Shown here piece by piece: positions 9,168 to 49,737 of a stretch of DNA of 64,000 nucleotides. The stretch's first letter is position 1. Every line of letters starts with the position of its first letter. The notes beneath the pieces are model-generated. The model had not been told where the DNA came from, did no database searches, and saw nothing but the letters and a program-made list of their open reading frames with translations. The stretch spans positions 124,001-188,000 of the IMG/VR virus record IMGVR_UViG_3300032287_004484; one strand, given 5' to 3'. This DNA comes from a virus. The translations under genes were made by a program, and so were the position numbers.

Positions 9168-9722
9168 TTAATGATTATTCAAATATTCTTGTAATGATGG
9201 TGCATTTCTATCTTTATTAGAAATCGTTATTTCTCTTATATTAACTGGTGGCATTCTTTTAATAAAGACTTCACTCTGTAAAAGAGGAATACCATTTATT
9301 ATTCTTTCATTTTCGGGAACTCTTGGAGATGATACAGAATATAAAACTCTATTATCATTTTCAAGAGTAAAAAATCCATGAGCACAGCCTTCTGGTACAT
9401 ATACTGATTGTAGAGTCGAATCTGTTAAAAAAACGACTTCTGTTTCTAAATAAGATGGTGATCCTTTTCTAAGATCAATAAAAAAATCATAAATTGATCC
9501 TTTCATTACTGTCACCAATTTTGCTTGTGCAAAATTACCTTCTTGAAAGTGTAAACCTCTAAGAACATGTTTTTTAGATTGAGAAATATTTTGCTGAATA
9601 AAGTGTTTAAAGTATTTATCTTTAAAATCATCTTGTAGATATTCAGAGAAAAAGCCTCTATCATCTTCAAAACTTTTATGGTCTAATAAAAAAGAATCTT
9701 GAATTTTTAAGTTAGTTATCAT
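9168..9722 (-). CDS. rmlC: dTDP-4-dehydrorhamnose 3,5-epimerase
   Basis: A 184-residue cupin of RmlC type: 'FEDDRGFFSEYL' (residues 19-30), 'QQNISQSKKHVLRGLHFQ' with the catalytic His in RGLHFQ, 'VTVMKGSIYDFFIDLRKGSP', 'VYVPEGCAHGFFTL' and 'SNKDRNAPSL' at the C-terminus. It epimerises dTDP-4-keto-6-deoxyglucose at C3 and C5 on the way to dTDP-L-rhamnose. No RmlD reductase is visible in the window, so the host or an unseen gene must finish the pathway. AATAAATACA lies 20 bases upstream of the ATG. Confidence 0.9.
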   Translation of the reverse strand: MITNLKIQDSFLLDHKSFEDDRGFFSEYLQDDFKDKYFKHFIQQNISQSKKHVLRGLHFQEGNFAQAKLVTVMKGSIYDFFIDLRKGSPSYLETEVVFLTDSTLQSVYVPEGCAHGFFTLENDNRVLYSVSSPRVPENERIINGIPLLQSEVFIKRMPPVNIREITISNKDRNAPSLQEYLNNH

Positions 9723-9788: not shown

Positions 9789-10424
9789 ATGGACTTAACT
9801 TTTGGAATAGTTACTAAATATGATGATAATAATCGTTTATTAGAAATAATAAATTCTATAAAAAATCTTCATATAAAAAACTATGAAATTATTTTTATTG
9901 GCGATGGAATAACAAGTGAAAATATTATTGGAGAAAATATTAAACATATAAAATTTGATGAAACTATAAAACAAGGTTGGATCACTAAAAAAAAGAATAT
10001 TATAGCAAAATCAGCAAAATATGAAATAATTGTTATGATGCATGATTATCATGTTTTTGATAAAGATTGGTATGAAAAATTTTTAATATTTGGTGATAAT
10101 TGGGATATATGTTGTACATCACAAATTATGATAGATGGTAGAAGGAATTTTGTAGATTGGGCCTTATGGGATAAACCTGGTTTTGGAAAAGGTCAAACAT
10201 GGGATTATAACGACTGGAATGAAACAAAATATATGTATATAAGCGGAGCTTTCTTTTTAGTTAAAAAATATGTTTTATTAAATGAACCTTTTAATGAATC
10301 TTTAACTTGGAATCAATCAGAAGATGTTGAGTGGTCTTTAAGAGTTAGAGAAAAATATAAAATCGTATGCAATGGATCTAGTGTTGTAAGACATAATAAG
10401 TCACATAGACATAATTATATGTAA
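9789..10424 (+). CDS. GT-A (family 2-like) glycosyltransferase
   Basis: A 211-residue protein starting with a GT2-type fold: 'LTFGIVTKYDDNNRLLEIINSI' (residues 3-24), 'YEIIFIGDG' and 'IIVMMHDYHVFDKDWYEKF', where the DxD-equivalent is H-D-Y. 'YISGAFFLVKK' and 'NQSEDVEWSLRVRE' resemble the acceptor/ED region of GT2 enzymes. It is compact and soluble. It starts a rightward run of five overlapping or adjacent genes (9789-13727). Confidence 0.7.
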   Translation: MDLTFGIVTKYDDNNRLLEIINSIKNLHIKNYEIIFIGDGITSENIIGENIKHIKFDETIKQGWITKKKNIIAKSAKYEIIVMMHDYHVFDKDWYEKFLIFGDNWDICCTSQIMIDGRRNFVDWALWDKPGFGKGQTWDYNDWNETKYMYISGAFFLVKKYVLLNEPFNESLTWNQSEDVEWSLRVREKYKIVCNGSSVVRHNKSHRHNYM

Positions 10425-10425
10425 T

Positions 10426-11799
10426 ATGAAAAATAAACTTGTAATTTTTGATTTAGATGGAGTATTAATTGATTCTAGAGATTTACATTATTACTCATTA
10501 AATAATGCTTTAAGTAAAATTGATAATAAATATATAATATCTAAAGATGAACATCTATCTATATTTGACGGATTAAGTACAACTAAAAAATTAAATTTAT
10601 TAGCTGAAATTAAAAAACTACCTAAAGAGTATCATCAGATCATTTGGGAAGATAAACAAAAAGCAACAATAGAATTATTAAAAAAAATTAATAAAAACAA
10701 AATCGCAATTTCTATAATTAATGAATTAAAAAAAATAGGATGGAAAGTAGCGGTTGCTTCTAATAGTATTAGAGAAACTTTAAGAGTATCTTTACATAGC
10801 ATTGGAATATTACATTTAATAGATTATATGGTTAGTAATGAAGATGTAATTAATCATAAACCTCATCCAGAAATGTATTGGAAGTGTATGTTATCTTTAA
10901 ATGCTTTACCATCTAATACTTTAATAGTTGAAGATTCACATATAGGAAGGCAAGCTGCATTATCTTCTGGAGCTAATCTTTATGCTATTAAAGATTCTTA
11001 TGAATTAAATTATAAAACATTTTTTAATGAACTTGAAAAGTTTGATAATAAAAAACAAAAAATAAATATACCTTGGAGTAATAAAAAAATGAACGTATTA
11101 ATCCCAATGGCTGGGGCTGGATCTAGATTTTCTCAAGCAGGATATACTTTTCCAAAACCATTAATTGAAGTTAATGGAAAACCAATGATTCAAAAAATAG
11201 TTGAAAATCTTAATATAGACGCTCATTATATTTTTATAGTACAAAAAGAACATTATGACAAATATAATTTAAAGCAATTATTAAATTTAATATCTCAAGA
11301 CTGTGATATAATTATTGTAGATTCTATTACTGAAGGAGCAGCTTGCACTGCTTTATTAGCAAAAGAAATAATAAACGATGATCAACCTCTTTTAATTGCT
11401 AATTCTGATCAAATTATGGATTGGAATTCTAATGAATGTTTATATGCTTTTTCTAATGATAATATTGATGGAGGAATTTTAGTTTTTGAATCAACACACC
11501 CTAAATGGTCTTTTGTTAAATTAGATTCTAATAATTTTGTAATAGAAGTTGCAGAAAAAAATCCTATTTCAAACATAGCTACTACAGGAGTTTATTATTG
11601 GTCAAAAGGTTCTCATTTTGTTAAATACGCAGAACAAATGATTACTAATAATATTAGAGTTAATAATGAATTTTATATATGTCCTATTTTTAATGAAGCT
11701 ATTAAAGATAATAAAAAAATTAAAATAAAATATGTTGATAAAATGTGGGGAATAGGTACCCCAGAAGATTTAAAATATTATTTGGAAAATAATAAATGA
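10426..11799 (+). CDS. Fusion of HAD phosphatase and sugar-phosphate nucleotidyltransferase
   Basis: A 457-residue two-domain protein. Residues 1-205 are a HAD hydrolase of the beta-phosphoglucomutase/phosphatase type (VIFDLDGVLIDS, then VASNS, then 'KPHPEMYWKC' and 'VEDSHIGRQAA'). Residues 223-457 are a nucleotidyltransferase ('VLIPMAGAGSRF', 'FPKPLIEVNGKPM', 'LIANSDQIMDW', 'GTPEDLKYYL'). Such fusions make NDP-activated sugars or polyols from phosphorylated precursors, one domain removing a phosphate and the other activating. The exact sugar cannot be read from sequence. The gene starts 1 base after the glycosyltransferase stop and its stop overlaps the methyltransferase start by 4 nt. Confidence 0.8.
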   Translation: MKNKLVIFDLDGVLIDSRDLHYYSLNNALSKIDNKYIISKDEHLSIFDGLSTTKKLNLLAEIKKLPKEYHQIIWEDKQKATIELLKKINKNKIAISIINELKKIGWKVAVASNSIRETLRVSLHSIGILHLIDYMVSNEDVINHKPHPEMYWKCMLSLNALPSNTLIVEDSHIGRQAALSSGANLYAIKDSYELNYKTFFNELEKFDNKKQKINIPWSNKKMNVLIPMAGAGSRFSQAGYTFPKPLIEVNGKPMIQKIVENLNIDAHYIFIVQKEHYDKYNLKQLLNLISQDCDIIIVDSITEGAACTALLAKEIINDDQPLLIANSDQIMDWNSNECLYAFSNDNIDGGILVFESTHPKWSFVKLDSNNFVIEVAEKNPISNIATTGVYYWSKGSHFVKYAEQMITNNIRVNNEFYICPIFNEAIKDNKKIKIKYVDKMWGIGTPEDLKYYLENNK

Positions 11800-12497
11800 A
11801 AAATATAAATGAATATTTAAATATGCAAAAAAATCAATATGAATTTGAAGCCTCAAACTGGAGTCTACAAAATTTAGATCATGTTGTAGGAAGTTATCAA
11901 GAACATAACAATTGGAAAGATTATGATGATTACCTTTTTAAAGATATAAATACTAATAATTTAGTTGGATTAGAATATGGATGTGGTCCAGCAAGAAATC
12001 TAATTAGATTTAATAATAGATTTTTAAAAATTGATGGATGTGATATTTCTAAAAATAATATTGATAAAGCTGAATTAAACTTAAAACATAATAACATAAA
12101 TAATTATTCTTTATTTATTTGTGATGGAAAAAGTATTCCAGCACAAAGTGAATTTTATGATATAATTTTTAGTGTTATATGTTTACAGCATATAGCTTGT
12201 TATGATATTCGTTATAGCATATTTAATGATATATATAGATGTTTAAAAAAAGATGGATATTTTTGTTTTCAAATGGGCTTTGGAAAAAAAAATAATTTTA
12301 ATGTTTCTAATTATTATGATAACTCTTTTGACGTTAATGTTACTAATGGTCTACATGATGTTATAATTGAAGATGAAAATTATTTAATTAATGATTTAAA
12401 AGATAAAATAGGATTTAGAAACTATATTTCTTATATAAGACCTACTGGACCTGGAGATTATCACGAAAATTGGATTTGGGTGCAAGCTCAAAAATGA
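11796..12497 (+). CDS. Class I SAM-dependent methyltransferase
   Basis: A 233-residue protein with the SAM-binding motif 'GLEYGCGPARNLIRF' (about residues 54-68), acidic motif II 'IDGCDISKNNIDKA' and motif IV 'DIIFSVICLQHI', then 'RCLKKDGYFCFQMG'. The substrate is not evident. Its position between an NDP-sugar enzyme and glycosyltransferases suggests sugar O-methylation. The start overlaps the previous stop by 4 nt (ATGA). Confidence 0.8.
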   Translation: MKNINEYLNMQKNQYEFEASNWSLQNLDHVVGSYQEHNNWKDYDDYLFKDINTNNLVGLEYGCGPARNLIRFNNRFLKIDGCDISKNNIDKAELNLKHNNINNYSLFICDGKSIPAQSEFYDIIFSVICLQHIACYDIRYSIFNDIYRCLKKDGYFCFQMGFGKKNNFNVSNYYDNSFDVNVTNGLHDVIIEDENYLINDLKDKIGFRNYISYIRPTGPGDYHENWIWVQAQK

Positions 12498-12940
12498 TAT
12501 TAATATCACATAGAGGAAACTTAAATGGTCCAAATATATCTTTTGAAAATAATCCAGAATACATTTTATCTTGTATCAATGATAATTTTGATTGTGAAAT
12601 TGATTTTTGGTTATTTAATAATAAATTATATCTAGGACACGATGAACCTCAATATCAAATTAATTTAGATTTTTTTAATAATAAAAACTTATGGATACAT
12701 TGTAAAAATAATTTATCTTTAGATTTTTGTTTAAAAAACAACCTAAGATGTTTTTTTCATAATAATGATGATTATACTATTACAAATAAAGGATATATTT
12801 GGGCATATCCAGGAAAAGAGTTTAATTCAAATTTATGTATTTCAGTTTTACCAGAAAAAAATAATTTTTTTATTCCAAAAAATATCTATGGAGTATGTTC
12901 TGATTATATAATTAAAATAAAGGAAATTTTAAATGTTTAA
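12494..12940 (+). CDS. Short GDPD-like phosphodiesterase-fold protein
   Basis: About 148 residues from the ATG that overlaps the methyltransferase stop (ATGA); an earlier in-frame start at 12470 is less likely. It begins 'MILISHRGNLNGPN' and continues 'FENNPEYI', 'CEIDFW' and 'LGHDEPQYQI'. These match the glycerophosphodiester phosphodiesterase pattern HRG...EN.P..I...E.D......H.D, with metal and acid/base residues kept (H6, R7, the E-x-D pair, H-D). Usual GDPD domains exceed 230 residues, so this is a minimal TIM-barrel half or a specialised relative. It may act on a phosphodiester-linked surface glycan. Confidence 0.6.
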   Translation: MILISHRGNLNGPNISFENNPEYILSCINDNFDCEIDFWLFNNKLYLGHDEPQYQINLDFFNNKNLWIHCKNNLSLDFCLKNNLRCFFHNNDDYTITNKGYIWAYPGKEFNSNLCISVLPEKNNFFIPKNIYGVCSDYIIKIKEILNV

Positions 12941-13727
12941 AGAAATAGATTATAATAAAAGAATACTAATAGGTACACCACTAGTTGATTGGAAGTGTTA
13001 TAAAAATGAACACGAAGCATGGTTGATAAACAGACACGAAATAAAAAATACTTTTAAAAATTGTGAATTTTTTTCTGCTTTTGAAATAAATAAAACTGGA
13101 TTAGATCCTTTTAATTCTGTAATTCAAAAATTAAATGAAATAAATGGAAAATATTGGACTTATTCAATTAATGATAATGAAAAAGAAATAAGAGAAATAA
13201 ATAGACTTATAAGAATAGAAACTGGTAGAAATTTAGTTAGAGAATATGCTCAAAGAAAAAGAATAACTAAGGGTGGTTCTTGGGGAGAAGATTGTACTTC
13301 TGAAAATAATTCGGTTTTTAATTTTGATGCTATATTATATGTGGATAGTGATATGATATTAACAAAACAAGTGATAGAAGGAGTTATATCTATTGATCAT
13401 CCATTGGTTGGTTGTAGAACATATTACGGATTACCGCCTGGAAAAATAATTAATCATAATCCTTTAATTGAAGAACACTGGACTACAGCTGGACTTTTAT
13501 TAGTAAATTCACCTGCATATTATGATTTGCCTTGGTATCATAATGCTTATTTAAATTTAAGCGATGATCCAAGTTTTCAATATATGTCATCAAGATTAAA
13601 TGAAATGAAAAACGATTTAACAATTAATCAACCTTATGGGATGACATGGGTTAGAAAAGATATTTATATAGATCATGTTGGACAAATAGGATTATTAGAA
13701 CATAGAAATTTACCAAATAGAGAATAA
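12933..13727 (+). CDS. Putative glycosyltransferase (GT-A with DSD)
   Basis: A 264-residue soluble protein with a GT-A-like metal motif in 'AILYVDSDMIL' (about residues 133-143) preceded by 'GRNLVREYAQ', and a later 'HWTTAGLLLVNSPAYY' and 'MTWVRKDIYIDHVG', where the final His may be a metal ligand. Resembles phage and bacterial family-2-like or glycan-modifying transferases, without an exact match. It overlaps the GDPD-like gene by 8 nt and closes the rightward run; its stop lies 2 bases from the convergent gene. Confidence 0.55.
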   Translation: MFKEIDYNKRILIGTPLVDWKCYKNEHEAWLINRHEIKNTFKNCEFFSAFEINKTGLDPFNSVIQKLNEINGKYWTYSINDNEKEIREINRLIRIETGRNLVREYAQRKRITKGGSWGEDCTSENNSVFNFDAILYVDSDMILTKQVIEGVISIDHPLVGCRTYYGLPPGKIINHNPLIEEHWTTAGLLLVNSPAYYDLPWYHNAYLNLSDDPSFQYMSSRLNEMKNDLTINQPYGMTWVRKDIYIDHVGQIGLLEHRNLPNRE

Positions 13728-37886: not shown

Positions 37887-39863
37887 ATGAAATTTGTAAA
37901 TTTATCATCATTATTTAGAGATTCCTCAGAGACACAAAACTTATTATCCTTAATTGATTCTAAAGGTTTTGGAATAAATTCTACTGTTATAACAACATCT
38001 GGAAATATTAATAATCTTTCTACTGATGATATTAGTTCCATTAAATTAACACAAGCAACTACTTTAACGGGTTTAGCAAATGGTGTTGATGGAAAAATAG
38101 TAATTATACATAATGCAAGTCCTAGTAATTTAACAATAGCAAATAATTCTGGATCTTCTAGTTCAGGTAATAAAATTTATACTGGATCTACATCAGATTT
38201 AACTTTATTACCTAATTCTTCTGTTTTATTACAATATGATAGCGATTCAACCATTTGGAGAGTTATTGGGATAAGTAATTCTCATAATGAATTAACAGGA
38301 AAGCAAGGTGGTGATGGTACTAATTTTTATCATTCTAATCAGCCAATAAACACTAATAGTAATGTTTCTTTTAATAATTTGACAGTTGTTAGTGGAGTCA
38401 ACGCGACTGGAAGTATTAAACTTAATAATATTACTTATCCTAGTACTGATGGAATTAGTGGACAAGCACTAATAACTAATGGATCCGGAACTTTATCTTT
38501 TACTAATGTTTCTCAAGTACATAATGATCTTACCTCAATTCAAGGTGGATCAGTTGGAAATTATTATCACTCTAATCAACCTATTAATACGACAAGTAAT
38601 GTTAGATTTAATAATTTAACGGTTGTTAGTGGAGTAAACGCAACTGGAAGTATTAAACTTAATAATATTACTTATCCAACTTCTGATGGAACCAGTGGAC
38701 AAGCTTTAGCAACTGATGGTAATGGTAATTTATATTTTACAACAGCAGGCGCTGGAACTGTTTTAGATACTTATATCACTAGTAAAGCAGTACAAATAAG
38801 CAATAATTCTACAAGTTCAGTTAATGCCCTATTTAGTGAAGTTGTATCTGGAATATATACTTTTTGGGTTAGTACTGACCCGAGAATTAAAGGTACTTTC
38901 TATTTAAATCAAAATGATATTAGCAATTCTGTGTTAGAAACAATATCTTCATCTGTATCAGGAAAACAAGATAATGCTAATTGTTTAAATGTTTACATTT
39001 CAAGTGGAAACATTATATTTCAAAATAAATTAGGTTCACAAGTAGTTGTAGCAGTAAGAAGAGAAACAAGTCCTTCTCATACTGGAGGTGGATCAGCTAT
39101 CAGTTCTGTTGCTTCTCACGCTGATTTAACAAATCTTCAAGGTGGAGATGGACAAGATTATTTTCATTCTAATCAACCTATAAATACAACTAGCACAGTA
39201 ACTTTTGCTGGAATTAATGTTCCATTAATTGAAAGTAGTGCTAGTGGAACATTGTCAAATGTAAGCACTAATAATGTAGGAGCCTTTAGATTTACTTGTG
39301 AATCTAGTACAGCGATAACTGGATTTGCTAATGGTAGTAATGGAAAATTATTATATCTTCATAACGCTAGTGCTGTAAATGTTACTTTTAAAAATAATTC
39401 AACATCATCATTATTAGCCAATAGGATTATAACTGGAAATAATGGCGATTTGATTTTAGGACCAGATAAATCGATCACTTTACAATATGATTCTTTTTCA
39501 TCTAAATGGAGAGTTTTAGGAGGAAGTGGAGGAAATAGTGGACAAAATCCTGAAACTCTTAATTTATCCAACACTAATTCAACAATTGATTTTTCAAATT
39601 ATTCTACTACTTCATTTAGAATAAAAAATCCAGCACAAATGACATTTACTAATGGAGTTAATGGAACATGGTATACATTAGCAATAGTTAGTGATGGATC
39701 TTATTCTTTCACATCTGAAACTAGATTTCCTCTTAATAACGCTCAACCAGTTCCATCTTCTGGAACTGTCGACATGTATAGTTTACATTGTATTGATACA
39801 GTTAGTGGAACCCGATATTTAGCAACATTTGCATACGATTATTCAGGAGTTATTTTACCATGA
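37887..39863 (+). CDS. Tail fibre protein carrying two recurring modules
   Basis: A 658-residue fibre starting MKFVNLSSLFRDSSE. It has two LQYDSxSxxWR modules (about 25-130 and 446-548), three 'YHSNQPIN' repeats, the 'STDPRIKGT...RRET' domain and the tip 'GTWYTLAIVSDGSYSFTSE'. Its first 130 residues are paralogous to the protein at 48157 on the far side of the enzymatic island. Its stop overlaps the adhesin start by 4 nt, suggesting that the adhesin caps this fibre. Confidence 0.8.
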   Translation: MKFVNLSSLFRDSSETQNLLSLIDSKGFGINSTVITTSGNINNLSTDDISSIKLTQATTLTGLANGVDGKIVIIHNASPSNLTIANNSGSSSSGNKIYTGSTSDLTLLPNSSVLLQYDSDSTIWRVIGISNSHNELTGKQGGDGTNFYHSNQPINTNSNVSFNNLTVVSGVNATGSIKLNNITYPSTDGISGQALITNGSGTLSFTNVSQVHNDLTSIQGGSVGNYYHSNQPINTTSNVRFNNLTVVSGVNATGSIKLNNITYPTSDGTSGQALATDGNGNLYFTTAGAGTVLDTYITSKAVQISNNSTSSVNALFSEVVSGIYTFWVSTDPRIKGTFYLNQNDISNSVLETISSSVSGKQDNANCLNVYISSGNIIFQNKLGSQVVVAVRRETSPSHTGGGSAISSVASHADLTNLQGGDGQDYFHSNQPINTTSTVTFAGINVPLIESSASGTLSNVSTNNVGAFRFTCESSTAITGFANGSNGKLLYLHNASAVNVTFKNNSTSSLLANRIITGNNGDLILGPDKSITLQYDSFSSKWRVLGGSGGNSGQNPETLNLSNTNSTIDFSNYSTTSFRIKNPAQMTFTNGVNGTWYTLAIVSDGSYSFTSETRFPLNNAQPVPSSGTVDMYSLHCIDTVSGTRYLATFAYDYSGVILP

Positions 39864-41233
39864 TGGCGATGTTACCACCTATAAAGGAATTACAATCAGC
39901 TGCTTTACAAGATTTAAATTTAACTGATGGGATCCTACCTACTGGAGTATATAGACGAGTAACAGGAACATATACTAGTGTTTCTGATAATAATACTGAA
40001 ATTATTTGTTTAGATTTTAATGCTACAGTTTGCGGGACTGGCGCTAGTCTTAATGATTCTTATACTGCTCAAGCAACAATATATCAACCAATAATTAATC
40101 ACGACTCTTCTGGTATTACTATGTTAAAAGGTAATAATGGTTCACTTGGCGGAACTGGTGGAGGTGGTGGCGGTACTTTTGGTGGAGGAAGTACAGCTGG
40201 TGGCACTGGAGGTTCGGGTGGCAGTGGCGGACAAGGATTATCTGGTGGTGATGGTGCAGCAGGTGGTGGTGGCGCAAGTGGAGCAAGTGGGGGAAGCGCA
40301 GTACTATCTTTAGCAGGAGCTAATGGCTCTTCTGGTAGTTCAGGCGGAACTGGTGGAGCTGGAGGTATATTAAATTGTGTTTCTTCAGGCGGAGCAGGTG
40401 GAAGTGGAGGAGGCGGAGGCGGAGGAGCTTCGTTTTTATCTACTCCAGGTGTTCCTGGAGGTGCAGGCGCTAGTGGAAATCCTGGTGCTGGAAATGGAGC
40501 TCCTGGTGCTGCTAGTTCTGATCCTTGTAGTGGTGCTGTTTATCCTGGTGGTTCAGGAGGATCTGGCAATGCTTCTGGAAGTATCAATGGAAATTCTACA
40601 GCTGGAGGCGCAGGAGGCAGCGGTTCTTTAGTTCCTGGTGGAACTGGTAATACTGGTAATAATGGAGGCACTTGTGGTGATATTTTAACTGGTGGTGGTG
40701 GTGGAGGTGGAGCAGGTGGTCCTGGATTATCAGGAGTAGCTTTACCTAGTGGAGTATCTGGTGGTAATGGTGGTACAGGCGGAAATGGTGGTACAGGTGG
40801 TAAACCAAGCAAAAGTCTTTTTATTTATTCTTATAATTCAATAAGTGGTTCTATTTTATCACCTACAATCTCAGGTGCTTCTGGTTTAACGGGATCAGCT
40901 GGTTCTCTTGGATCATCAGTAACTTTAGGATTAAATACTGTAACTTCTGGTAACGGTAGTCCTGGAGGAAATGGAGGAAATGGTTCTAGTGGAGCTAATT
41001 CATATATATCTATTGTAAGCAGAAATACTAATAATATAAATTTAAATATCTGTAGTCCAATTCAAGGATCTAATGGTGATGGAAGTACTGGAAATGGAGG
41101 AGCTGGAGCATTAAGTATTTCTTCTAATGGATCAAATGGATTTACTGGAATAGGTGGAGCAGGTGGAGCAGCTCTTGCTAAAATACCTGCAAGAATTAAA
41201 AATACAAGTTGTGGCTCAATAATTAATATATAA
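39860..41233 (+). CDS. Glycine-rich gp38-like adhesin
   Basis: A 457-residue protein with about 90 ordinary residues at each end and a central region (about 94-400) of repeated G-G-x and G-x-x motifs (for example GGTGGGGGGTFGGGS, 'GGAGGSGGGGGGGAS') interrupted by short variable sequences. T-even-type gp38 adhesins, such as that of phage S16, fold such stretches into packed polyglycine type II helices whose loops bind the receptor. The gene follows the fibre it would cap, overlapping by 4 nt. The stretch is visibly richer in G+C than its surroundings because of glycine codons. Function in receptor binding is inferred from composition and position. Confidence 0.75.
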   Translation: MMAMLPPIKELQSAALQDLNLTDGILPTGVYRRVTGTYTSVSDNNTEIICLDFNATVCGTGASLNDSYTAQATIYQPIINHDSSGITMLKGNNGSLGGTGGGGGGTFGGGSTAGGTGGSGGSGGQGLSGGDGAAGGGGASGASGGSAVLSLAGANGSSGSSGGTGGAGGILNCVSSGGAGGSGGGGGGGASFLSTPGVPGGAGASGNPGAGNGAPGAASSDPCSGAVYPGGSGGSGNASGSINGNSTAGGAGGSGSLVPGGTGNTGNNGGTCGDILTGGGGGGGAGGPGLSGVALPSGVSGGNGGTGGNGGTGGKPSKSLFIYSYNSISGSILSPTISGASGLTGSAGSLGSSVTLGLNTVTSGNGSPGGNGGNGSSGANSYISIVSRNTNNINLNICSPIQGSNGDGSTGNGGAGALSISSNGSNGFTGIGGAGGAALAKIPARIKNTSCGSIINI

Positions 41234-41245
41234 AAGGAAATAAAA

Positions 41246-42094
41246 ATGGAATTTACTCAAGCATATATATATAAAATTTTTGTATTTGATTCAAATACTG
41301 GTGAATTATTGAAAACAGAAGATTATTCTAATTTTCCAGATGTTCAAGAAGAAATTATAAAACATAATACTGATAATCAAGATAATCGTTGGAATTTATA
41401 TGTTGGAACAGAATATCCACCTAAAGGTGTAAAATTTGATATAACTATTAAACAATTTGTTGAAAAAACACTTTCTGAAAAATATGCTGATGGAGAAATT
41501 CAAATTTCTGATGAATTTAAGATAGTTAACGATTCATTAGTAAGATTAACTAAAAAAGAATTATATGAAAAAGGACTTATAAAATTAGAATATGACGAAA
41601 AAATAGATGAATTTGATCAAATAGTTAAACTTACTAAAAAAGAAATGTATGAACTTAATAAAATTACTAAATATCAAGTTTTTGATTACTTTATTCAAGA
41701 ATTAAATTTAAAAATAGAAACTAAATTAAAAAATTATTATAATTATCCTATGCAAGAAATAGGAACTTGGTCTTTAAAAAAAGAACAATCAGTCAAATGG
41801 TTAGAATTAACTAATCAAAATAAAATAGATGTTATTAATAATTCAATATCAATATATTATTTACTTTTTTCTGAATCTAATATTTTAGATACTGATAATG
41901 AATCTGATAAAATATTAAAAATTGATATATTATCTAATAAAATAATAAATAAGTATAAAGATTTAGAAACAGTTTACGGCAATATGTTTTTATTAAGAAG
42001 TCAAACTAAAAAACAATTAGAAGATATTTTAAATACTGAAAATAGTAATGTATTTCAAAAAATGGAAGAAGTTTTTAATAATATTAAAACATGA
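41246..42094 (+). CDS. Putative fibre assembly chaperone/accessory protein
   Basis: 282 residues, with an N-terminal 'YIYKIFVFDSNTGELLKTEDYSNFPD' and a repeated lysine-rich helix ('RLTKKELYEKGLIKLEYDEKID', 'KLTKKEMYELNKI'). The C-terminal part is helical. Position directly after the adhesin and composition suggest a fibre chaperone, but there is no recognised domain. It precedes the enzymatic island and overlaps its first gene by 4 nt. Confidence 0.5.
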   Translation: MEFTQAYIYKIFVFDSNTGELLKTEDYSNFPDVQEEIIKHNTDNQDNRWNLYVGTEYPPKGVKFDITIKQFVEKTLSEKYADGEIQISDEFKIVNDSLVRLTKKELYEKGLIKLEYDEKIDEFDQIVKLTKKEMYELNKITKYQVFDYFIQELNLKIETKLKNYYNYPMQEIGTWSLKKEQSVKWLELTNQNKIDVINNSISIYYLLFSESNILDTDNESDKILKIDILSNKIINKYKDLETVYGNMFLLRSQTKKQLEDILNTENSNVFQKMEEVFNNIKT

Positions 42095-42897
42095 TTATTA
42101 CTTTAACAGTTTGTTATAATAATTTCACTGTAATAGAAAAAAGTATTGATAGATATTATGAATTATGTTATTATAAACCTGATATTCATTTTATTTTAGA
42201 TAATGAATATCCTTTAAATAAAGATAGACTTAAAGAAACACTAAAAAAAATATCTCATAAATATGATTGTCTAATTTTAGAACCTAATAAAAATTTAGGA
42301 ATTAAAAATGGTACAAATTGGGCATTAGATCAAATATCGTTAAGTGATAATGATAAAATAATTATATATGATTCTAATGCTTATCCTATTACTAAACACT
42401 TTGATAAAGCATTAATAGATGTTTTAGAAAATAATGAAGATATTGTCGGAGTTTGTTTAACAGGTGGATCTTCATATACGAATAATTTAGAAAAGTTATA
42501 CGATAAATATTCTAAGCATTATTATTTTAGTGAAAATAATTTTAATATGGGTTCATCAATAGGTGTTTTTAATTATTACATTCATAAACAATTAAAATAT
42601 GATATTGATCTTTATAATAATTATTATGGAGATGCTATAAATTTACCTGATTCAAAATTAAAAAAATTACTTAAAAAAATAGATAAAAAAATGATTTTTT
42701 TATCTGATTATAATGAAAATTTAAAATTTTATTTTAATCAAGAAGATAAAGAATATATAAACTATAAAATTATTGCGCAAATTAATTCTTTAAATGATTT
42801 TAATCTAGAAAAATACCTTTTAAATAAGAATAAATATAATAAAATATCTCTTATAAATTACAAAATAAAAAAAATAAATGAGGTATTAAATTTTTGA
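42091..42897 (+). CDS. GT2-like glycosyltransferase, island copy 1
   Basis: A 268-residue protein beginning 'MIITLTVCYNNFTVIEKSIDRYYEL', with 'HFILDNEYP', 'LILEPNKNLGIKNGTNWALDQI', and 'KIIIYDSNAYPITKHF' in the place of the DxD region. Related to the protein at 44609 by the same order ('NNNYP', 'NFNKNLGLFNSMYEI', 'YIILHEGNN'). A cytoplasmic glycosyltransferase of unknown donor and acceptor. It overlaps the genes on both sides by 4 nt, so the island is one tightly coupled operon. Confidence 0.6.
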   Translation: MIITLTVCYNNFTVIEKSIDRYYELCYYKPDIHFILDNEYPLNKDRLKETLKKISHKYDCLILEPNKNLGIKNGTNWALDQISLSDNDKIIIYDSNAYPITKHFDKALIDVLENNEDIVGVCLTGGSSYTNNLEKLYDKYSKHYYFSENNFNMGSSIGVFNYYIHKQLKYDIDLYNNYYGDAINLPDSKLKKLLKKIDKKMIFLSDYNENLKFYFNQEDKEYINYKIIAQINSLNDFNLEKYLLNKNKYNKISLINYKIKKINEVLNF

Positions 42898-43523
42898 AAA
42901 AGGTTGTTATTTTTGGGTTTAGTGGTTTAACTAAAGGTTTTATTGTTAATAATATAGATTATCTTTTAAAAGGTAATATATCTTATGATATAGAATGTAT
43001 TTATATTGATAAGGAATATATAAAAGAAACATCTTTTGAAGGAATACCTATATTAAGTGATATTAATAAATATAAAGGTTATAGTTGTCTTATATTGACT
43101 TATCATCATGATTTAAGAAAAAAATGGATAAAAATTGCTGATTCATTAGAAATGGAGCATATAAGTATAATACATAAAGATAATTATATTGCTGAAAATG
43201 TTAAAATAGGTAAAGGTTGTTTTATAGGTCAGAATAATATAATTGAAAGTGGTGTCATCATAGGTGATTATTTTATTGCTGGATATAATAATAGAATAGG
43301 TCATGATAGTATTATAGGTGATTTTTGTCATATTTATGTTAGTGCTAATATAGGTGGGTATAATAAAATAAAAGATAATACTTCAATATGTTCTTCATCC
43401 TGTACTAAAGAGTATATAAGTATTGGTGATAATTCTATTATTGGTTTAGGTGCAGTTTTATTTAAAGATCTTAATGATAATTGTACAGCAATAGGAAATC
43501 CAGCAAGAGTAATTAAAAAATGA
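42894..43523 (+). CDS. NeuD/PglD/VioB-like hexapeptide acetyltransferase
   Basis: A 209-residue protein from a TTG start that overlaps the previous stop. An N-terminal Rossmann-like part ('KVVIFGFSGLTKGFI') is followed by left-handed beta-helix hexapeptide repeats ('NVKIGKGCFIGQNNIIESG', 'DYFIAGYNNRIGHDSIIGD', 'ISIGDNSIIGLGAV') and 'AIGNPARVIKK' at the end. The His in NRIGHDS is the family's catalytic base. Such enzymes N- or O-acetylate amino sugars made by a PLP aminotransferase, which fits the DegT gene in the same operon. Confidence 0.85.
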   Translation: MKKVVIFGFSGLTKGFIVNNIDYLLKGNISYDIECIYIDKEYIKETSFEGIPILSDINKYKGYSCLILTYHHDLRKKWIKIADSLEMEHISIIHKDNYIAENVKIGKGCFIGQNNIIESGVIIGDYFIAGYNNRIGHDSIIGDFCHIYVSANIGGYNKIKDNTSICSSSCTKEYISIGDNSIIGLGAVLFKDLNDNCTAIGNPARVIKK

Positions 43524-44059
43524 TAAAAATACATAAAGATATAGAAAAGAATATTTTTGAAGACTCACTACTTTTTATTTTAGATAATTATGATACTATA
43601 AAAAAGGATCTCTTAAATGTTCCTAAAAAATGTTATTCAGCATTTTATCAAATTCAAAATGTAAGTGATTATGATTCTAATTGGACTTTTTACCCTTTAA
43701 TATATAAAAAAAGAATTTTAGATTTTGAAAGACTAGCAACATTTACTACTCAATTATTAAATGATATAGGGGTTATTAATGCTGGTTTTTCCTTAATTTC
43801 ACCAAAATCAAAAACATCTTTACATAAAGATAATACTCCATATACATATCGTTCACATCTAGGTTTAATAGTTCCAAAAAATAATAGTTTTTTATTAGAT
43901 GGAGAAGATTTTACTGTTAAAGAAAAAGAAATCACTTTATTTTCAACTGAATTAGAACATATAGCAATAAATGATAGTGATGAGGATAGGTTTATACTTT
44001 TATTAGATTTTTTAAGACCTAATATATCTATTAACAAATTATTTTTAAAAAATGTTTAA
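43520..44059 (+). CDS. AspH-like Fe(II)/2-oxoglutarate hydroxylase, copy 1
   Basis: A 179-residue protein with the aspartyl/asparaginyl beta-hydroxylase core: H102-K-D104, Y110-R111-S-H113-LGLIVP, 'EKEITLFSTELEHIAIN' with H147, and 'DRFILLLDFLRP' with R157. H102, D104 and H147 would form a facial triad, and R157 would bind 2-oxoglutarate. Known relatives hydroxylate Asp/Asn side chains in proteins or free amino acids; the substrate here is unknown. A paralogue lies at 45417. Confidence 0.75.
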   Translation: MIKIHKDIEKNIFEDSLLFILDNYDTIKKDLLNVPKKCYSAFYQIQNVSDYDSNWTFYPLIYKKRILDFERLATFTTQLLNDIGVINAGFSLISPKSKTSLHKDNTPYTYRSHLGLIVPKNNSFLLDGEDFTVKEKEITLFSTELEHIAINDSDEDRFILLLDFLRPNISINKLFLKNV

Positions 44060-44612
44060 CCAAGAATTAGAAAAATTATTAAATGTAGATATTAAATTAA
44101 ATGCTGAGTTTTATAATGATATTATAGATTCGGAATTATCAATAATATATCACGGTGAAAGATTAGCAAGTATTCTATATAAAAGAAGTGGTTTATTAAA
44201 ATTAAGTAAAATTGAATCAGTACACGCAAAAAAAATAAAAAAAATTATAAAAAAAATACACCCTATTGAAAAAGATTTTTTTAAGTTTTATAAATCAGTA
44301 TTAAAATCGAGGGATTTAAAAAAATATTCTCTTTTAATTGATGATTTAGAACAATATGCTATATATAGGTATAATACATTAATTAAAGTATTAAATGATA
44401 AAATAATAATTAATACACTAAAAGATATATTAAGAGATGAAGCAGATCATTCAAATGATAATATAAAAATTACATATAAAAATAAATTTGAAGGATATGA
44501 AAATTATTATTTATATAATAAGTATATTGATTTTTTAAATATTGATTATGATCAATTTAAAAAAATGATGTGGAATTGTGAGTTTTATAAACAACTAAGA
44601 GGACATAAATGA
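44052..44612 (+). CDS. COQ7-like ferritin-fold diiron protein
   Basis: A 186-residue helical protein with the ligand pattern of a diiron four-helix bundle: 'HGE36RLASILY' (compare DHAGE of COQ7), E55-S-V-H58, E100 in 'LIDDLEQYAIYRYN', and E130-A-D-H133 in 'LRDEADHSND'. Two ExxH motifs with separate glutamates are the COQ7/ferritin-like arrangement. COQ7 hydroxylates an aromatic ring; a phage enzyme in a sugar/hydroxylase operon could hydroxylate another substrate. It overlaps copy 1 of the hydroxylase by 8 nt. Motif reading is by eye and not confirmed by alignment. Confidence 0.55.
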   Translation: MFNQELEKLLNVDIKLNAEFYNDIIDSELSIIYHGERLASILYKRSGLLKLSKIESVHAKKIKKIIKKIHPIEKDFFKFYKSVLKSRDLKKYSLLIDDLEQYAIYRYNTLIKVLNDKIIINTLKDILRDEADHSNDNIKITYKNKFEGYENYYLYNKYIDFLNIDYDQFKKMMWNCEFYKQLRGHK

Positions 44613-45424
44613 ATTTATTTTGTGGAACTATCGCTTATAATAAATTTTCAATATTAGAAAAATCAATTATTAATTTTATTGAAAAATCTAAAATTAAAAA
44701 TAAAACTCATTATGTAATTGATAATAATTATCCTTACGGTGATTCTAAAAAATTAGAAAAATTATGTAATGATTTTAATATTAAATATCTAAATTTTAAT
44801 AAAAATTTAGGGTTATTTAATTCTATGTATGAAATACAAAATTTATGTCAAGAACAAGATTATATTATTTTACACGAAGGAAATAATTTAATTTTAGATG
44901 ATGGATTTGATGAAGCATTAATTGATGCATATAATATTTTTGCTTATGATCATAAAGATGAAATTTATTATTTATGTTTAGAAAATGAATTTAGTAATGA
45001 ATTACAAAAATTACAAAAAAATAATATTAATTATTCTATAATACAAGATAAAAAATTGATTGGTTTTCCTTATTCTGGAACTAATATTTGTAAAAAAGAA
45101 AAATTAAAAGTTTTTTTATCTAATTATAATAATATTTATTTTGATGACCCCTATTTAAATTCAAATATAAAAAAAGATGCTTATATACTTAGAGATTATA
45201 AAGAAATATCACATTATTTTCTTAAAGAAGAAGATATAGAATATAAAATGTATAAAATGATAACTGTTTTTTTAAAATATTCAAAATCTTTTGATGAATT
45301 TTTAAAATTATATAATGAAAAAACTGAATATGTTTATATGATGATTAATAAAATAGATAAAAAAGTATTGAATTATATAGGGTATATTCCAGAAAGTCCT
45401 ATTATAAGGAATAATCATGAGTGA
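44609..45424 (+). CDS. GT2-like glycosyltransferase, island copy 2
   Basis: A 271-residue paralogue of the protein at 42091: 'MNLFCGTIAYNKFSILEKSIINF', 'HYVIDNNYP', 'NFNKNLGLFNSMYEI', 'YIILHEGNNLILDDGFDEALIDAY'. Glycosyltransferase assignment rests on this GT-A-like order. It is followed by the second hydroxylase (8-nt overlap), so a transferase-hydroxylase pair occurs twice in the island. Confidence 0.6.
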   Translation: MNLFCGTIAYNKFSILEKSIINFIEKSKIKNKTHYVIDNNYPYGDSKKLEKLCNDFNIKYLNFNKNLGLFNSMYEIQNLCQEQDYIILHEGNNLILDDGFDEALIDAYNIFAYDHKDEIYYLCLENEFSNELQKLQKNNINYSIIQDKKLIGFPYSGTNICKKEKLKVFLSNYNNIYFDDPYLNSNIKKDAYILRDYKEISHYFLKEEDIEYKMYKMITVFLKYSKSFDEFLKLYNEKTEYVYMMINKIDKKVLNYIGYIPESPIIRNNHE

Positions 45425-45998
45425 AATAAAAACATATCTTAATCAAAATATTGTTTCTTTATACGAAGATAAATTAAAATATTTACAAAAAAATATTAAT
45501 GTTTTTAAACAGGAATTATCTGATATACCTTTAGATAAATATGAAAACTTATTATTTATGAAAGATGTTGTAGATGATGATTATAAATGGAAAGTATATG
45601 GGATAAGATATAAATATAAAAACATTGATTTTGGAGATTATGCTCCAAAATCTGAAAGAATTTTAAATGAAATTAATTGTGTTAATGGTGGTTTTAGTTT
45701 ATTTTTACCAAATACAGAAACAACTTTACATTCTGGAACTACTCCTTACACTTATAGAAGTCATCTTGGATTAGATGTACCAGAAAATTGCGGTTTTATT
45801 TGTAATGATAATGATATCAGTATTAAAAATGGCGATATAAATTTTTTTGATGCTACTGATAAACATCAAGCTTGGAATAAATCTCAAAAAAATAGAATTA
45901 TATTATTAGTTGATTTTTTAAAACCAAATATTGATAAAAACAATATAATAAGAGGAACTAAGCAGCAAACTAATATTAAAACATATAAGAATAATTAA
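45417..45998 (+). CDS. AspH-like Fe(II)/2-oxoglutarate hydroxylase, copy 2
   Basis: A 193-residue paralogue of the protein at 43520, with H105-S-G107, Y113-R114-S-H116-LGLDVP, 'KNGDINFFDATDKHQAWN' (H150) and 'RIILLVDFLKP' (R160). The third iron ligand position is Gly instead of Asp, as in human AspH as I recall it (HTG...), which works with a two-histidine iron site. The two phage copies thus differ in metal-site type. Substrate unknown; position next to the adhesin makes a phage protein substrate thinkable. Confidence 0.75.
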   Translation: MSEIKTYLNQNIVSLYEDKLKYLQKNINVFKQELSDIPLDKYENLLFMKDVVDDDYKWKVYGIRYKYKNIDFGDYAPKSERILNEINCVNGGFSLFLPNTETTLHSGTTPYTYRSHLGLDVPENCGFICNDNDISIKNGDINFFDATDKHQAWNKSQKNRIILLVDFLKPNIDKNNIIRGTKQQTNIKTYKNN

Positions 45999-45999
45999 A

Positions 46000-47115
46000 A
46001 TGATCAATATACATCAACCGAAAATAGATTTATTTGATAAATTTGAAATACTTAAAACTTTATCAACAAATTGGATAGGTAAAGGTAAAAAAGTAGAAGA
46101 ATTTGAAAAAAACTTACAAGATTATCTTCAATTAAAAAATATCACCACAGTTACTTCTGGTACACAAGCTCTATATGAAGTTTTTAGATTATTAAAATCT
46201 AAAACTCAAAAAAAAGAAATTATAGTTTCATCACTATCTTTTATTGGAGTTTTAAGTTCGTTAAAAATAAATGATTTTGATTTTGTCTATGCTGACATAG
46301 ATAAAAGTCATTTAAGTTTATCATTAAAATCAATTAATCAAAAAATAACTGAAAATACAGCAGCTGTTGTGATACAACATTATGGCGGTAGACCAAATCA
46401 TGAAATAGAAAAAATAGCAAAATCTTTAAAACAAAAAAATATTTATTTAATTGAAGATTGTGCAACAGTTTTCGGAGGAACTATAAATGATATTCATCTT
46501 GGTAGTTATAGTGACTTCGCAATTTGGTCTTTTGATTCCGTAAAAATAATTACTACCTTAGATGGTGGAGCAATTTATTGTAAAAATAGCGATGATCTAC
46601 AAAAAATAAAAGAAAATATACATTTTGGATTAGTTGATTCACCTACCTCTTATAGTGCTTTTCAAAAGAAAAATGAATGGTGGGAAATAAATCCTAAATC
46701 ATATGGAACTCGTAATGTATTAAACGATGTTACTGCTTCACTTGGAATCTCTCAATTAAAAAAAATAAAAAAATTTATAAAATGTCAACAAGATGTATGG
46801 GATTTTTATTTAAATAATATAAAAAACAAAAAAATATCTTTTCCAATAGAATCGTCACCACATATTAAAGAATCTTATTTCTTTTTTTGGATTTTATCGC
46901 CAGAAAGGGATCAATTAGCTCAATTTTTAAAAAAAAATGAAATCTTTAGCACTTTTAGATATTATCCTTTACATAAAACTGAACTATATCATAAAGAAAA
47001 TGTTTTTTTACCAAATACTGATTTTATGTATCAAAGATTATTATGTCTACCTTGTCATAAAAGTTTAATAATAAAAGATTTAAAATATATAATAAATTTA
47101 ATAAATAAATTTTAA
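46000..47115 (+). CDS. DegT/DnrJ/EryC1/StrS-family PLP aminotransferase
   Basis: A 371-residue sugar aminotransferase with 'TSGTQALYE' (S53-G-T phosphate site), 'LIEDCATVFGG' (D153 on the PLP nitrogen) and 'SFDSVKIITTLDGGA' with the PLP-binding Lys at K182; the C-terminal 'FRYYPLHKTELY' is also typical. It would convert a keto-deoxysugar nucleotide to an amino sugar. With RmlA and RmlB in this genome giving dTDP-4-keto-6-deoxyglucose, and the NeuD/VioB-like acetyltransferase in the same operon, an acetylated amino-dideoxy sugar is a reasonable product. It follows the second hydroxylase by 1 base. Confidence 0.9.
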   Translation: MINIHQPKIDLFDKFEILKTLSTNWIGKGKKVEEFEKNLQDYLQLKNITTVTSGTQALYEVFRLLKSKTQKKEIIVSSLSFIGVLSSLKINDFDFVYADIDKSHLSLSLKSINQKITENTAAVVIQHYGGRPNHEIEKIAKSLKQKNIYLIEDCATVFGGTINDIHLGSYSDFAIWSFDSVKIITTLDGGAIYCKNSDDLQKIKENIHFGLVDSPTSYSAFQKKNEWWEINPKSYGTRNVLNDVTASLGISQLKKIKKFIKCQQDVWDFYLNNIKNKKISFPIESSPHIKESYFFFWILSPERDQLAQFLKKNEIFSTFRYYPLHKTELYHKENVFLPNTDFMYQRLLCLPCHKSLIIKDLKYIINLINKF

Positions 47116-47148
47116 AAGGCTAATAAAAGTTATTACATAGTTTAAATA

Positions 47149-48057
47149 ATGAATAAAAATATATACATACAAATAACTGGTGGAGTTGGTAAACATGTAG
47201 CCTTTACTTGTCTTTTACCCTTACTTAAAAATAAATATGAAAATATATACATATCCTGTATATATGAAGATATATTTAAAGGAAATCCTTATGTAAAAGA
47301 AGTAAATCCTAAAGTAGATAAAACTTTTTATAAAAATATTATTCTCAACGATAAAACAAAAATAGTTTTAAGTGATCCATATGATTCTGAACTATTTTTA
47401 AAAAAGAAAATTCACATGTTAGAAGCTTGGGGAAATTTATGTGAAATAGAAATAAATAACCCTATGAATTTAAAAACAGAACTTTACATGACAGAACGTG
47501 AAAAATTTACTGTAGATAAAGTAATAAATGAATTGAGAATAAAAACTAAAGATAAATTTATTATGATACAGTTAAATGGAGGACAAAGCCCTCATAACTT
47601 TGATATGAATAATGAAAAGGAATTTACATTTTTTAATGAAGAATCAAAAAGATTTTATCCTTTTGATTATTATATAGAACTTATCAAAAAATTAAAACAA
47701 AATTATCCAGAACATGCTATAATTAGATATGGTCTTATGAATGAAACAATACCAAATGAAATAAGTAATTTAATATTAACTATTCAACCAGCAATTCTTT
47801 ATAAAAATTATTATTGGATTTCTCAATACGCTAAACATGTAATATGTATAGATTCATCCTTACAACACATGACAGCAGGCATAAAACCTTCCGTAGTTAT
47901 TTGGGGAAATACAAAATCAGAACATTTTGGATACAATATTCATAAAAACTTACAAGAAAATAATGAGGACACGACGTCTTACTGTAGACCACTAGGAGAA
48001 AATAATCCCAACATTAAGTTTCCTTCTCCAAACAAAATAATGGAAAATTTAATATAG
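47149..48057 (+). CDS. GT9-like (heptosyltransferase-type) glycosyltransferase
   Basis: A 302-residue GT-B-type protein. N-terminal 'IYIQITGGVGKHVAFTCLLPLL' is the first Rossmann strand and loop; the C-terminal 'HVICIDSSLQHMTAGIKPSVVIWG' matches the family-9 D-S-x-x-x-H-x-A-A...P-V-V-x-x-x-G donor site. Known members are ADP-heptose:LPS heptosyltransferases. Here the sugar is unknown. Last gene of the island; 33 bases separate it from the DegT gene. Confidence 0.7.
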   Translation: MNKNIYIQITGGVGKHVAFTCLLPLLKNKYENIYISCIYEDIFKGNPYVKEVNPKVDKTFYKNIILNDKTKIVLSDPYDSELFLKKKIHMLEAWGNLCEIEINNPMNLKTELYMTEREKFTVDKVINELRIKTKDKFIMIQLNGGQSPHNFDMNNEKEFTFFNEESKRFYPFDYYIELIKKLKQNYPEHAIIRYGLMNETIPNEISNLILTIQPAILYKNYYWISQYAKHVICIDSSLQHMTAGIKPSVVIWGNTKSEHFGYNIHKNLQENNEDTTSYCRPLGENNPNIKFPSPNKIMENLI

Positions 48058-48156: not shown

Positions 48157-49737
48157 ATGAAATATATTAATTTATCATCTTTAGTTAGAAATTCAAATGA
48201 AAACGATGACATATTATCGTTATCAGCCAAAAAAGGATTCGCACTAGATTTTACAATAGTAAATACATCTGGTACTCTTAACAATTATTCAATTTCAGAA
48301 GAATCTTCTTTTAAATTTACAGCAGCTACTAATATCACTGGATTTAGTGGAGGATTTAATGGTAAATTTCTATATATTTATAATGGAAATAATTCGTCTG
48401 TTTTAATTTTAAATAATAACTCTTTATCATCTTTATCTCAAAATAGAATTTTAACTAATACTGGTGCTGATTTAGAAATTCCAATTAATGGCGGAGTAAT
48501 TTTACAATATGACAGTGATTCGTCCGTTTGGAGAATAATAGGTGGAAGCGGAAGTGGAGCATCAACTGGTGGAGGATCTAGCGTCACATTTACTTCTTCA
48601 ACTGATTTTTCTCTTGGTAGTCCAATATATTTTAGTTCTAGTGGTACGTGGCAATTAGCAAAAGCTGATTTAGATACGACTTCTGTTCAATATGTAATTT
48701 CTCAAAAAACAGGTTCTGGAAGTATTTCTTATACTGCTCTAGCAAGTGGAGAAATAACTTTAACAACGGGACAATGGGATGTAGTTACAAATGGTAGTGG
48801 CGGATTAACATCTGGGTCAATTTATTTCTTATCATCTTCTACAGCAGGTAAAATATCTACTAATGTTGGATTAATTTATGCACCAGTTCTAAGAGCTCTT
48901 TCATCAACTAAAGGATTCGTTTCTCTTTCAATTAATTCAATCGAAAGTGGAATGGGTGATACTTTTTATCGAGATACTGTTACAACAATTGCTAATACAT
49001 CAGCAATAACTCTAACTTATCCACCTGCTGGTAAAGCATATACTTGGTTATCTATTGATGGAGCAATTCAAAGTGGAATTGATTTTGACCTTGCAGGTAA
49101 TACCCTAACTTTAGGAGCAACAGTTCCATCTGGAACTTTAATAGATGTTTTATATGCTAGAGCAGTTCTATTAGCCGATTCTAATGCAATTAATAAAATG
49201 GTCGCATTTAGTGAAACAGTAACTGGATCAGCAAAAACAACTTTTAATTTACCTTCAGTTCCATCTGGATTAAATTCTTGTATAGTTTTTGTAGGAGGAT
49301 CTATTCAAGATACTTCTAAATTTAATCTTTCTGGTAATGTTTTATCTATGAGTGATCCAGTCCCAGTAGGAGTTCAATTAGTTGCTTATATTTTAAATTC
49401 AAGTGGAATTTCAAATAGCATAGATTCATATGTAAATCGTCAAGCATATAATTTATCAGCAAATGGAGCAATTTCAATATCAACTATATTTGGAAGTCAA
49501 AGTACTGGATTTTATAGATTTTTTGATATGAATGATCCTAGAATAAGTGGAACAATATCTTTAAAACATAATGGCATTGGCGTTGATCCAGATATAAGAG
49601 TTGATTCAAACAGTAGTTTAATTAGTATAACAATAAATACCGCAAGTAAAGTTAATATCTATATATCTTCTAACTTACTAACCTTTCAAAATTTAACATC
49701 TAACACTTTAGCTTTAAGGATTTATAGAGAGATATAA
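48157..49737 (+). CDS. Tail fibre protein, paralogue of 37887 N-terminus
   Basis: A 526-residue fibre starting MKYINLSSLVRNSNE. Residues 1-130 are homologous to the protein at 37887, including the LQYDSDSSVWRII module end. The middle has two copies of a beta unit ('TYPPAGKAYTWLSIDGAIQSG', 'NLPSVPSGLNSCIVFVGGSIQ'), and the C-terminal 110 residues match the 'DPRI.GT...R.YRE' domain of the proteins at 34242 and 37887. Structural. Confidence 0.8.
   Translation: MKYINLSSLVRNSNENDDILSLSAKKGFALDFTIVNTSGTLNNYSISEESSFKFTAATNITGFSGGFNGKFLYIYNGNNSSVLILNNNSLSSLSQNRILTNTGADLEIPINGGVILQYDSDSSVWRIIGGSGSGASTGGGSSVTFTSSTDFSLGSPIYFSSSGTWQLAKADLDTTSVQYVISQKTGSGSISYTALASGEITLTTGQWDVVTNGSGGLTSGSIYFLSSSTAGKISTNVGLIYAPVLRALSSTKGFVSLSINSIESGMGDTFYRDTVTTIANTSAITLTYPPAGKAYTWLSIDGAIQSGIDFDLAGNTLTLGATVPSGTLIDVLYARAVLLADSNAINKMVAFSETVTGSAKTTFNLPSVPSGLNSCIVFVGGSIQDTSKFNLSGNVLSMSDPVPVGVQLVAYILNSSGISNSIDSYVNRQAYNLSANGAISISTIFGSQSTGFYRFFDMNDPRISGTISLKHNGIGVDPDIRVDSNSSLISITINTASKVNIYISSNLLTFQNLTSNTLALRIYREI

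Follow-up and report, generated by a model that had tools for sequence, protein, structure and literature searches.

In T4-like pelagimyophages, the fibre cluster includes glycosyltransferases (GTs), and AspH is annotated among the core proteins (PMC7029224); clusters of sugar genes and 2-oxoglutarate (2OG) oxygenases are reported from jumbo cyanophages (PMC7824862). Here we describe an island of eight genes (42091-48057) set between fibre genes in a 64,000-nucleotide stretch (hereafter, the window) of the IMG/VR virus record IMGVR_UViG_3300032287_004484. The window comprises bases 124001-188000 of the 290,274-base record and has a GC content of 26%; coordinates are those of the window unless marked genome. 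The island encodes, in order, a GT2-like protein (GT2a), a NeuD/PglD/VioB-type acyltransferase, a hydroxylase (AspH1), a candidate diiron protein, a second GT2-like protein (GT2b), a second hydroxylase (AspH2), a DegT aminotransferase and a GT9-like protein. We lean towards the view that it is a late-expressed, fibre-coupled cassette that modifies the virion, with the fibre or the neighbouring Gly-rich adhesin as candidate substrate. Judged from its sequence, the phage is a 290-kb T4-like jumbo phage. Its terminase is T4-like (best phage match, 29.5% identity, in an uncultured 595-kb phage), and a search of viral contigs gave no close relative.

The pelagimyophages are likewise T4-like aquatic phages with GT and lipopolysaccharide (LPS)-type genes in the tail-fibre cluster and an AspH core protein. 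They differ in that their GTs are mainly GT8, no pairing of AspH with a GT is reported, and no operon with DegT, NeuD, a diiron protein and two AspH genes is described (PMC7029224). In the cultured pelagimyophage HTVC008M, the only PF05118-like match was weak, below cut-off and outside the fibre genes. The jumbo cyanophage clusters share sugar-nucleotide enzymes and several GTs, and a second cluster has 2OG-Fe(II) hydroxylases; these clusters contain carbamoyltransferase and halogenase genes, are not described within a fibre operon, and were interpreted as capsule modification or secondary metabolism (PMC7824862). The viosamine island of Pseudomonas syringae also combines a DegT aminotransferase, a VioB-type acyltransferase and a GT, and acts on a surface protein, flagellin; however, it is cellular, its acyl chain is made via VioS, VioR and acyl carrier protein, and it has no 2OG or diiron hydroxylases (PMC3927599). 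Glycosylation of virion proteins by phage-encoded enzymes has a precedent in mycobacteriophages, as far as the account in PMC13313380 goes (Freeman 2023, cited therein). The initial annotation knew of no described phage system with this combination of enzymes. That was too strong: because fibre-cluster GTs, AspH in T4-like phages and jumbo-phage clusters of 2OG oxygenases and sugar genes are published (PMC7029224; PMC7824862), the kind of system is already known. What seems new is the combination of duplicated GT2-AspH pairs, a diiron protein, DegT and NeuD in a fibre operon, which our searches, at the sensitivity they had, did not recover from any other source.

Organization and predicted timing of the island

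All eight open reading frames (ORFs) of the initial annotation were recovered on the plus strand, and the first seven overlap or lie within 1 base of each other as it had described (junctions of -4, -4, -8, -4, -8 and +1 nt). The DegT and GT9-like genes are separated by 33 nt, and the GT9-like gene and the next fibre gene by 99 nt. Upstream, a tail-fibre-like gene (37887-39863) overlaps the Gly-rich adhesin gene (39860-41233) by 4 nt; 12 nt further on is a putative fibre accessory or chaperone gene (41246-42094), which shares 4 nt with GT2a. With these short overlaps and gaps, coding sequence is almost continuous from the fibre gene through the adhesin and accessory genes and on through the island. 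No plus-strand terminator-like site was found from 41.2 to 48.1 kb. As in pelagimyophages of the host-recognition-cluster (HRC) type, the GT genes thus have fibre genes on both sides and, judged from the terminase, belong to a T4-like phage.

Hydropathy analysis revealed no membrane segment in any island protein, unlike LpxO; the substrates are therefore probably cytosolic. No flippase, polymerase, ligase, membrane-enzyme or export gene was recognised in the island. Recent acquisition of the island was considered and rejected. Its GC content is 21%, versus ~31% in the fibres, but GC at third codon positions lies in the same low range (6-15%), indicating that the dip reflects amino-acid make-up and not foreign origin.

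A motif resembling an early promoter, TTTTTAGGTTT...C.CTT with a -10-like element after it, was present at 82 genome sites. Most of these lie within 40 kb of the start or 70 kb of the end of the record, and the structural half of the genome has almost none. The motif did not occur in the fibre/island region and occurred once in the whole window, the same number as in a shuffled window. Sites of the form TTTTTAGGTTTA..CACTT plus the -10-like element were intergenic, typically 35-100 nt upstream of ORF starts, and TTTTAGGTT was present in 34 of 211 upstream regions (0.83 expected). This motif is probably the early promoter of the phage, and its absence from the region suggests that the island is expressed late.

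Hydroxylases, transferases and a candidate diiron protein

AspH1 (43520-44059; PF05118 6.6e-24) and AspH2 (45417-45998; PF05118 6.5e-23) exceeded the curated cut-off of 22.6 bits, with scores of 85.0 and 81.8, bearing out their earlier description as AspH-like Fe/2OG hydroxylases. They are the only PF05118 (Asp_Arg_Hydrox) proteins in the 290-kb record. The iron site and the conserved R-x-H-L-G-L core expected of PF05118 hydroxylases were present. In alignments, AspH1 has an HxD...H site (H-K-D...H with RSHLGL), an LpxO-like ligand set, and AspH2 has H-S-G...H, the two-His (HxG) arrangement of human AspH (PDB 5apa, 8.4e-9). The two proteins are 39% identical and grouped as sisters (support 98/96) in a tree of six sequences, the branches of which were long. 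Sequence comparison thus provides solid grounds for regarding them as sister copies that diverged at the iron site. AspH1 weakly matched the LpxO and OlsC models. Identification of AspH1 as an LpxO lipid A hydroxylase was rejected (48.5 bits against an NCBIfam equivalog cut-off of 500), as was an LpxO-type membrane enzyme (maximal 19-residue hydropathy 1.23, versus 2.53 for LpxO).

Each hydroxylase gene is paired with a GT2-like gene, and the initial finding that this pair occurs twice was confirmed. GT2a (42091-42897) matched PF00535 below cut-off (7e-4; 20.0 bits against 23.3). GT2b (44609-45424) had no family match of its own and was placed solely by its 29% identity to GT2a (E 5e-16). The relatedness of the two transferases therefore stands, and their assignment to GT2 is weak; profile comparison of the GT2-like proteins with two other phage GTs gave no significant match. 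The GT2-AspH unit looks duplicated.

The protein encoded between AspH1 and GT2b (44052-44612) had been called COQ7-like. It matched no COQ7 model and fell below the cut-offs for Rubrerythrin (PF02915 0.01; 16.7 bits against 22.8) and Ferritin_2 (PF13668 0.02; 15.4 against 24.7). The diiron part of the call fared better: its ligand set, E...ExxH...E...ExxH, was unique among the 230 phage proteins with a length of 120 aa or more, and the pattern arose in 45 of 20,000 shuffles. This is weak but suggestive sequence evidence for a ferritin-like diiron oxygenase. Predicted structures of this protein and GT2a had a predicted local distance difference test score of ~46 with meaningless fold matches and were not used. 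In tblastn searches of the phage collection, neither of these proteins nor GT2b had a match.

The GT9-like protein (47149-48057) also scored below cut-off in Pfam (16.8 bits against 22, E 0.0044) and TIGR02193 (5.8e-5); its HTVC111P homologue likewise fell just under the Pfam cut-off. Alignment showed 33-34% identity to the annotated phage glycosyltransferases HTVC111P gp53 and HTVC112P gp49, so the proposed GT9-like transferase was retained as an assignment of moderate strength.

Amino-sugar genes

The aminotransferase (46000-47115) was confirmed as a DegT/DnrJ/EryC1/StrS sugar aminotransferase (PF01041 5e-64; 217 bits against a cut-off of 19.8). Its pyridoxal phosphate-lysine motif, WSFDSVK, aligns with WSFDAMK of the closest PDB chain, TlmJ (9.6e-51), which we take to be an enzyme of the tallysomycin pathway. 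The sequence assignment of the hexapeptide sugar N-acyltransferase (42894-43523) to the proposed NeuD/PglD/VioB type is good: it matched TIGR03570 (NeuD/PglB/VioB) over its full length at 1e-38, slightly below the curated cut-off (133 bits against 160.8), had PglD-like and VioB matches in the PDB, and its HD motif aligned with that of PDB 4m9c.

A route to a dTDP-amino sugar from RmlA and RmlB, as first suggested, was supported, and RmlC is also present in the window. On the minus strand lie genes for a glucose-1-phosphate thymidylyltransferase-like RmlA, which would supply dTDP-glucose (5805-6545; PF00483 2e-38; TIGR01207 2.5e-52, below the equivalog cut-off), a dTDP-glucose 4,6-dehydratase-like RmlB (6838-7836; TIGR01181 1.9e-61, below the equivalog cut-off) and a dTDP-4-dehydrorhamnose 3,5-epimerase-like RmlC (9168-9722; PF00908 1e-45; TIGR01221 1.2e-39; PDB 1dzr 1.8e-26). 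No RmlD was recognised. On paper, these three enzymes together with DegT and the NeuD-type enzyme could plausibly yield a dTDP-4-acylamino-4,6-dideoxyhexose. The marine phage AG-345-F15 carries RmlA-RmlB-RmlC followed contiguously by a DegT relative (Rml genes recognised by eye), which supports a chain from Rml to DegT.

As a separate observation, the plus strand carries a further glycan cluster at 9789-13727, with a GT2, a fused HAD phosphatase-nucleotidyltransferase, a methyltransferase and two unassigned genes.

Fibre-linked homologues in other phages

Homologues of the GT9-like protein were sought in a phage collection of 50,697 records. Three records, from two other lineages, contained one, in each case in the fibre module. 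In the Pelagibacter phages HTVC111P (31.6 kb) and HTVC112P (32.5 kb), the gene directly follows the fibre gene, gp52 and gp48 respectively, with no gap, and the stretches compared contained no other annotated glycan genes. In the marine phage AG-345-L05 (9995-14561 of the stretch compared), it comes after genes for a LamG fibre, a 2OG-Fe(II) oxygenase, a sulfotransferase and a DUF7936 protein, in that order, and before a carbamoyltransferase gene. AG-345-L05 thus also shares a 2OG-Fe(II) oxygenase with our phage; in the stretch compared it has sulfotransferase and carbamoyltransferase genes instead of AspH, DegT and NeuD, homologues of which were likewise not found in the HTVC111P and HTVC112P stretches. 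The link of the island to fibres is therefore stronger than the sequence alone had shown.

Two side observations concern these phages. The AG-345-L05 gene set might produce a sulfated or carbamoylated fibre glycan. Directly adjoining a tail protein gene, HTVC111P (gp50, 8237-8644 of the stretch compared; PF02794 2e-12) and HTVC112P (gp46, 1997-2383) carry a gene for an HlyC-type RTX lysine acyltransferase, possibly another virion-modifying enzyme.

Partial resemblances were found elsewhere. The viral contig with the nearest DegT in the IMG/VR scan has DegT, a GNAT acetyltransferase and a GT-like gene among probable tail genes (weak tail calls), and P-SSM2 has a 2OG-Fe(II) oxygenase among its fibre genes. 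One genome scan revealed only one AspH, standing alone in a planctomycete, and homologues of the other island genes were not present near it. AspH matches in Salmonella and Acinetobacter records of the phage collection were rejected as phage genes, being LpxO-like and located among bacterial genes.

Proposed function and alternatives

In the proposed mechanism, RmlA and RmlB, perhaps with RmlC, would produce a dTDP-4-keto-6-deoxyhexose. DegT would aminate C4 and the NeuD/VioB-type enzyme would N-acylate the product to a dTDP-4-acylamino-4,6-dideoxyhexose; an L-sugar is possible if RmlC takes part. The AspH enzymes, each with its GT2-like partner, would act in the cytosol on side chains of a virion protein, for which the fibre or Gly-rich adhesin next to the island is the likeliest candidate. 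Their hydroxylation would create or tune acceptor sites, and the GT2-like and GT9-like enzymes would attach and extend the sugar. More speculatively, the diiron protein might add a further oxidation, on the protein or the acyl group. An acylated amino sugar on the fibres would then alter adsorption, stability or recognition.

Operon context, timing, the lack of membrane and export genes and the fibre-linked GT9-like homologues together favour the virion as target over the host surface. The DegT-bearing viral contig, the oxygenase genes among fibre genes in P-SSM2 and in the second fibre locus of this phage, the GT2-AspH pairing, the Rml-DegT order in AG-345-F15 and the mycobacteriophage precedent also speak for the proposed mechanism. 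Several points weigh against this. The fibre and adhesin are only candidate substrates, the GT2 and diiron assignments are weak, and the Rml genes lie ~35 kb from the island on the opposite strand. The epidermal growth factor (EGF)-type AspH consensus C-x-[DN]-x4-[YF]-x-C-x-C was found in none of the scanned phage ORFs; the substrate might instead be of host origin. Protein and alignment scans of viral contigs for AspH, the diiron protein and GT2, and a search with the PYTYRxHLGL DNA pattern, revealed no relative of the whole island, and the suggested neighbourhood of AspH, COQ7-like and GT2-like genes was not found in other phages in the contig and phage-collection scans; distant relatives may have been missed, because the contig and genome scans depend on exact short peptides. 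Similar clusters were also read by their authors as modifying the host O-antigen (PMC7029224; PMC7824862).

Applied to this island, that reading would mean that the enzymes alter the LPS or capsule of the infected cell, so that superinfection or the rebinding of progeny is blocked; the fibre locus would then simply be a plastic, gene-accumulating site. This is the strongest alternative, and we consider it rather unlikely for the present island. It accords with the large AG-345-F15 cluster, in which GDP-sugar genes accompany RmlA-RmlB-RmlC-DegT, with a GT/DegT/PglD-like island in Flavobacterium phage immuto, with the membership of LPS heptosyltransferases in GT9, and with the weak matches of AspH1 to LpxO and OlsC. 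However, AspH1 falls far short of the LpxO cut-off, the island lacks the flippase, polymerase, ligase and membrane enzymes mentioned above and lies outside the regions bearing the early-promoter-like motif, and the GT9-like homologues are coupled to fibres even in ~32-kb phages.

If the virion is the target, the AspH enzymes might install beta-hydroxy-Asp/Asn (or a similar residue) on the adhesin, to which the paired GT2-like enzymes would add the acylated amino sugar. We put forward this specific chemistry only tentatively and think it doubtful. To our knowledge, hydroxylation followed by glycosylation of a protein has no example in viruses of bacteria. We also know of no hydroxylases in the virion glycosylation of mycobacteriophages, whose targets are reportedly the capsid and tail tube. 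The initial statement that AspH-type enzymes hydroxylate Asp/Asn in proteins was overstated: lipid hydroxylases and other types also belong to PF05118, and no scanned phage ORF has the EGF-type consensus. A different residue, an acyl group or a host molecule may be what these enzymes hydroxylate.

In a further alternative, which we consider quite improbable, both hydroxylases and the diiron protein would modify the N-acyl group of the amino sugar and not a protein, with glycosylation alone directed at fibre or host. Hydroxyacylated Qui4N is a real flagellin sugar, produced by a VioA/VioB island, but its hydroxyacyl groups are made by the acyl-chain enzymes VioS and VioR and not by 2OG oxygenases (PMC3927599). 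The weak similarity of AspH1 to the acyl-chain hydroxylases LpxO and OlsC speaks for this alternative; against it, each AspH has a GT2-like gene of its own, which suggests chemistry on the acceptor and not on the donor. Least probable of all is a small metabolite, such as a hydroxylated amino acid-sugar conjugate, with no macromolecule modified: TlmJ is the closest solved relative of the aminotransferase and the predicted product of a 10-gene cyanophage cluster that includes 2OG oxygenases is a secondary metabolite (PMC7824862), but the island has no nonribosomal peptide synthetase, ligase, carrier or export gene and lies inside the fibre locus.

Neighbouring genes and other features

The fibre-like gene that heads the run into the island (37887-39863, plus strand) had no confident family match; by eye, it is a paralogue of the plus-strand tail-fibre-like gene that follows the island (48157-49737; phrog_21488 1e-5). 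The adhesin candidate (plus strand) was named from its composition (30% Gly) and matched nothing in Pfam or PHROG. The accessory gene (plus strand) matched phrog_10358 (8e-12), of unknown function, and tblastn against the phage collection returned nothing for it. A second fibre locus contains, among fibre-like genes, a P4H-type 2OG-Fe(II) oxygenase gene (genome 62092-62724, minus strand; PF13640 2.4e-14, phrog_61).

Outside these loci, a lipoprotein-like ORF (genome 195561-196460) begins, by eye only, like a cytochrome c peroxidase; this and other lipobox ORFs might hint at the identity of the host. Long tandem arrays of small paralogous ORFs (~70-110 aa) with repeated N-termini occupy genome 1-10000 and 22000-32000.

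Implications for phage fibres

The broader result may be the repeated coupling of single modification enzymes to fibre genes; a limited search of open papers found none describing it as a recurring pattern. If hydroxylation followed by glycosylation is indeed what the island performs, it would be one case of a wider class of fibre-coupled cassettes that includes GTs, hydroxylases, sulfotransferases and carbamoyltransferases. Fibres determine which cells a phage binds, and their decoration by encoded enzymes would be a control of adsorption that cannot be seen in the fibre sequence. Such decoration, if true, would set a limit to how well receptor binding can be predicted from the sequence alone. 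It would also account for the hydroxylases, sulfotransferases and single glycosyltransferases that some aquatic phages carry beside their fibre genes. The question is directly testable with the cassettes of the cultured ~32-kb Pelagibacter phages.

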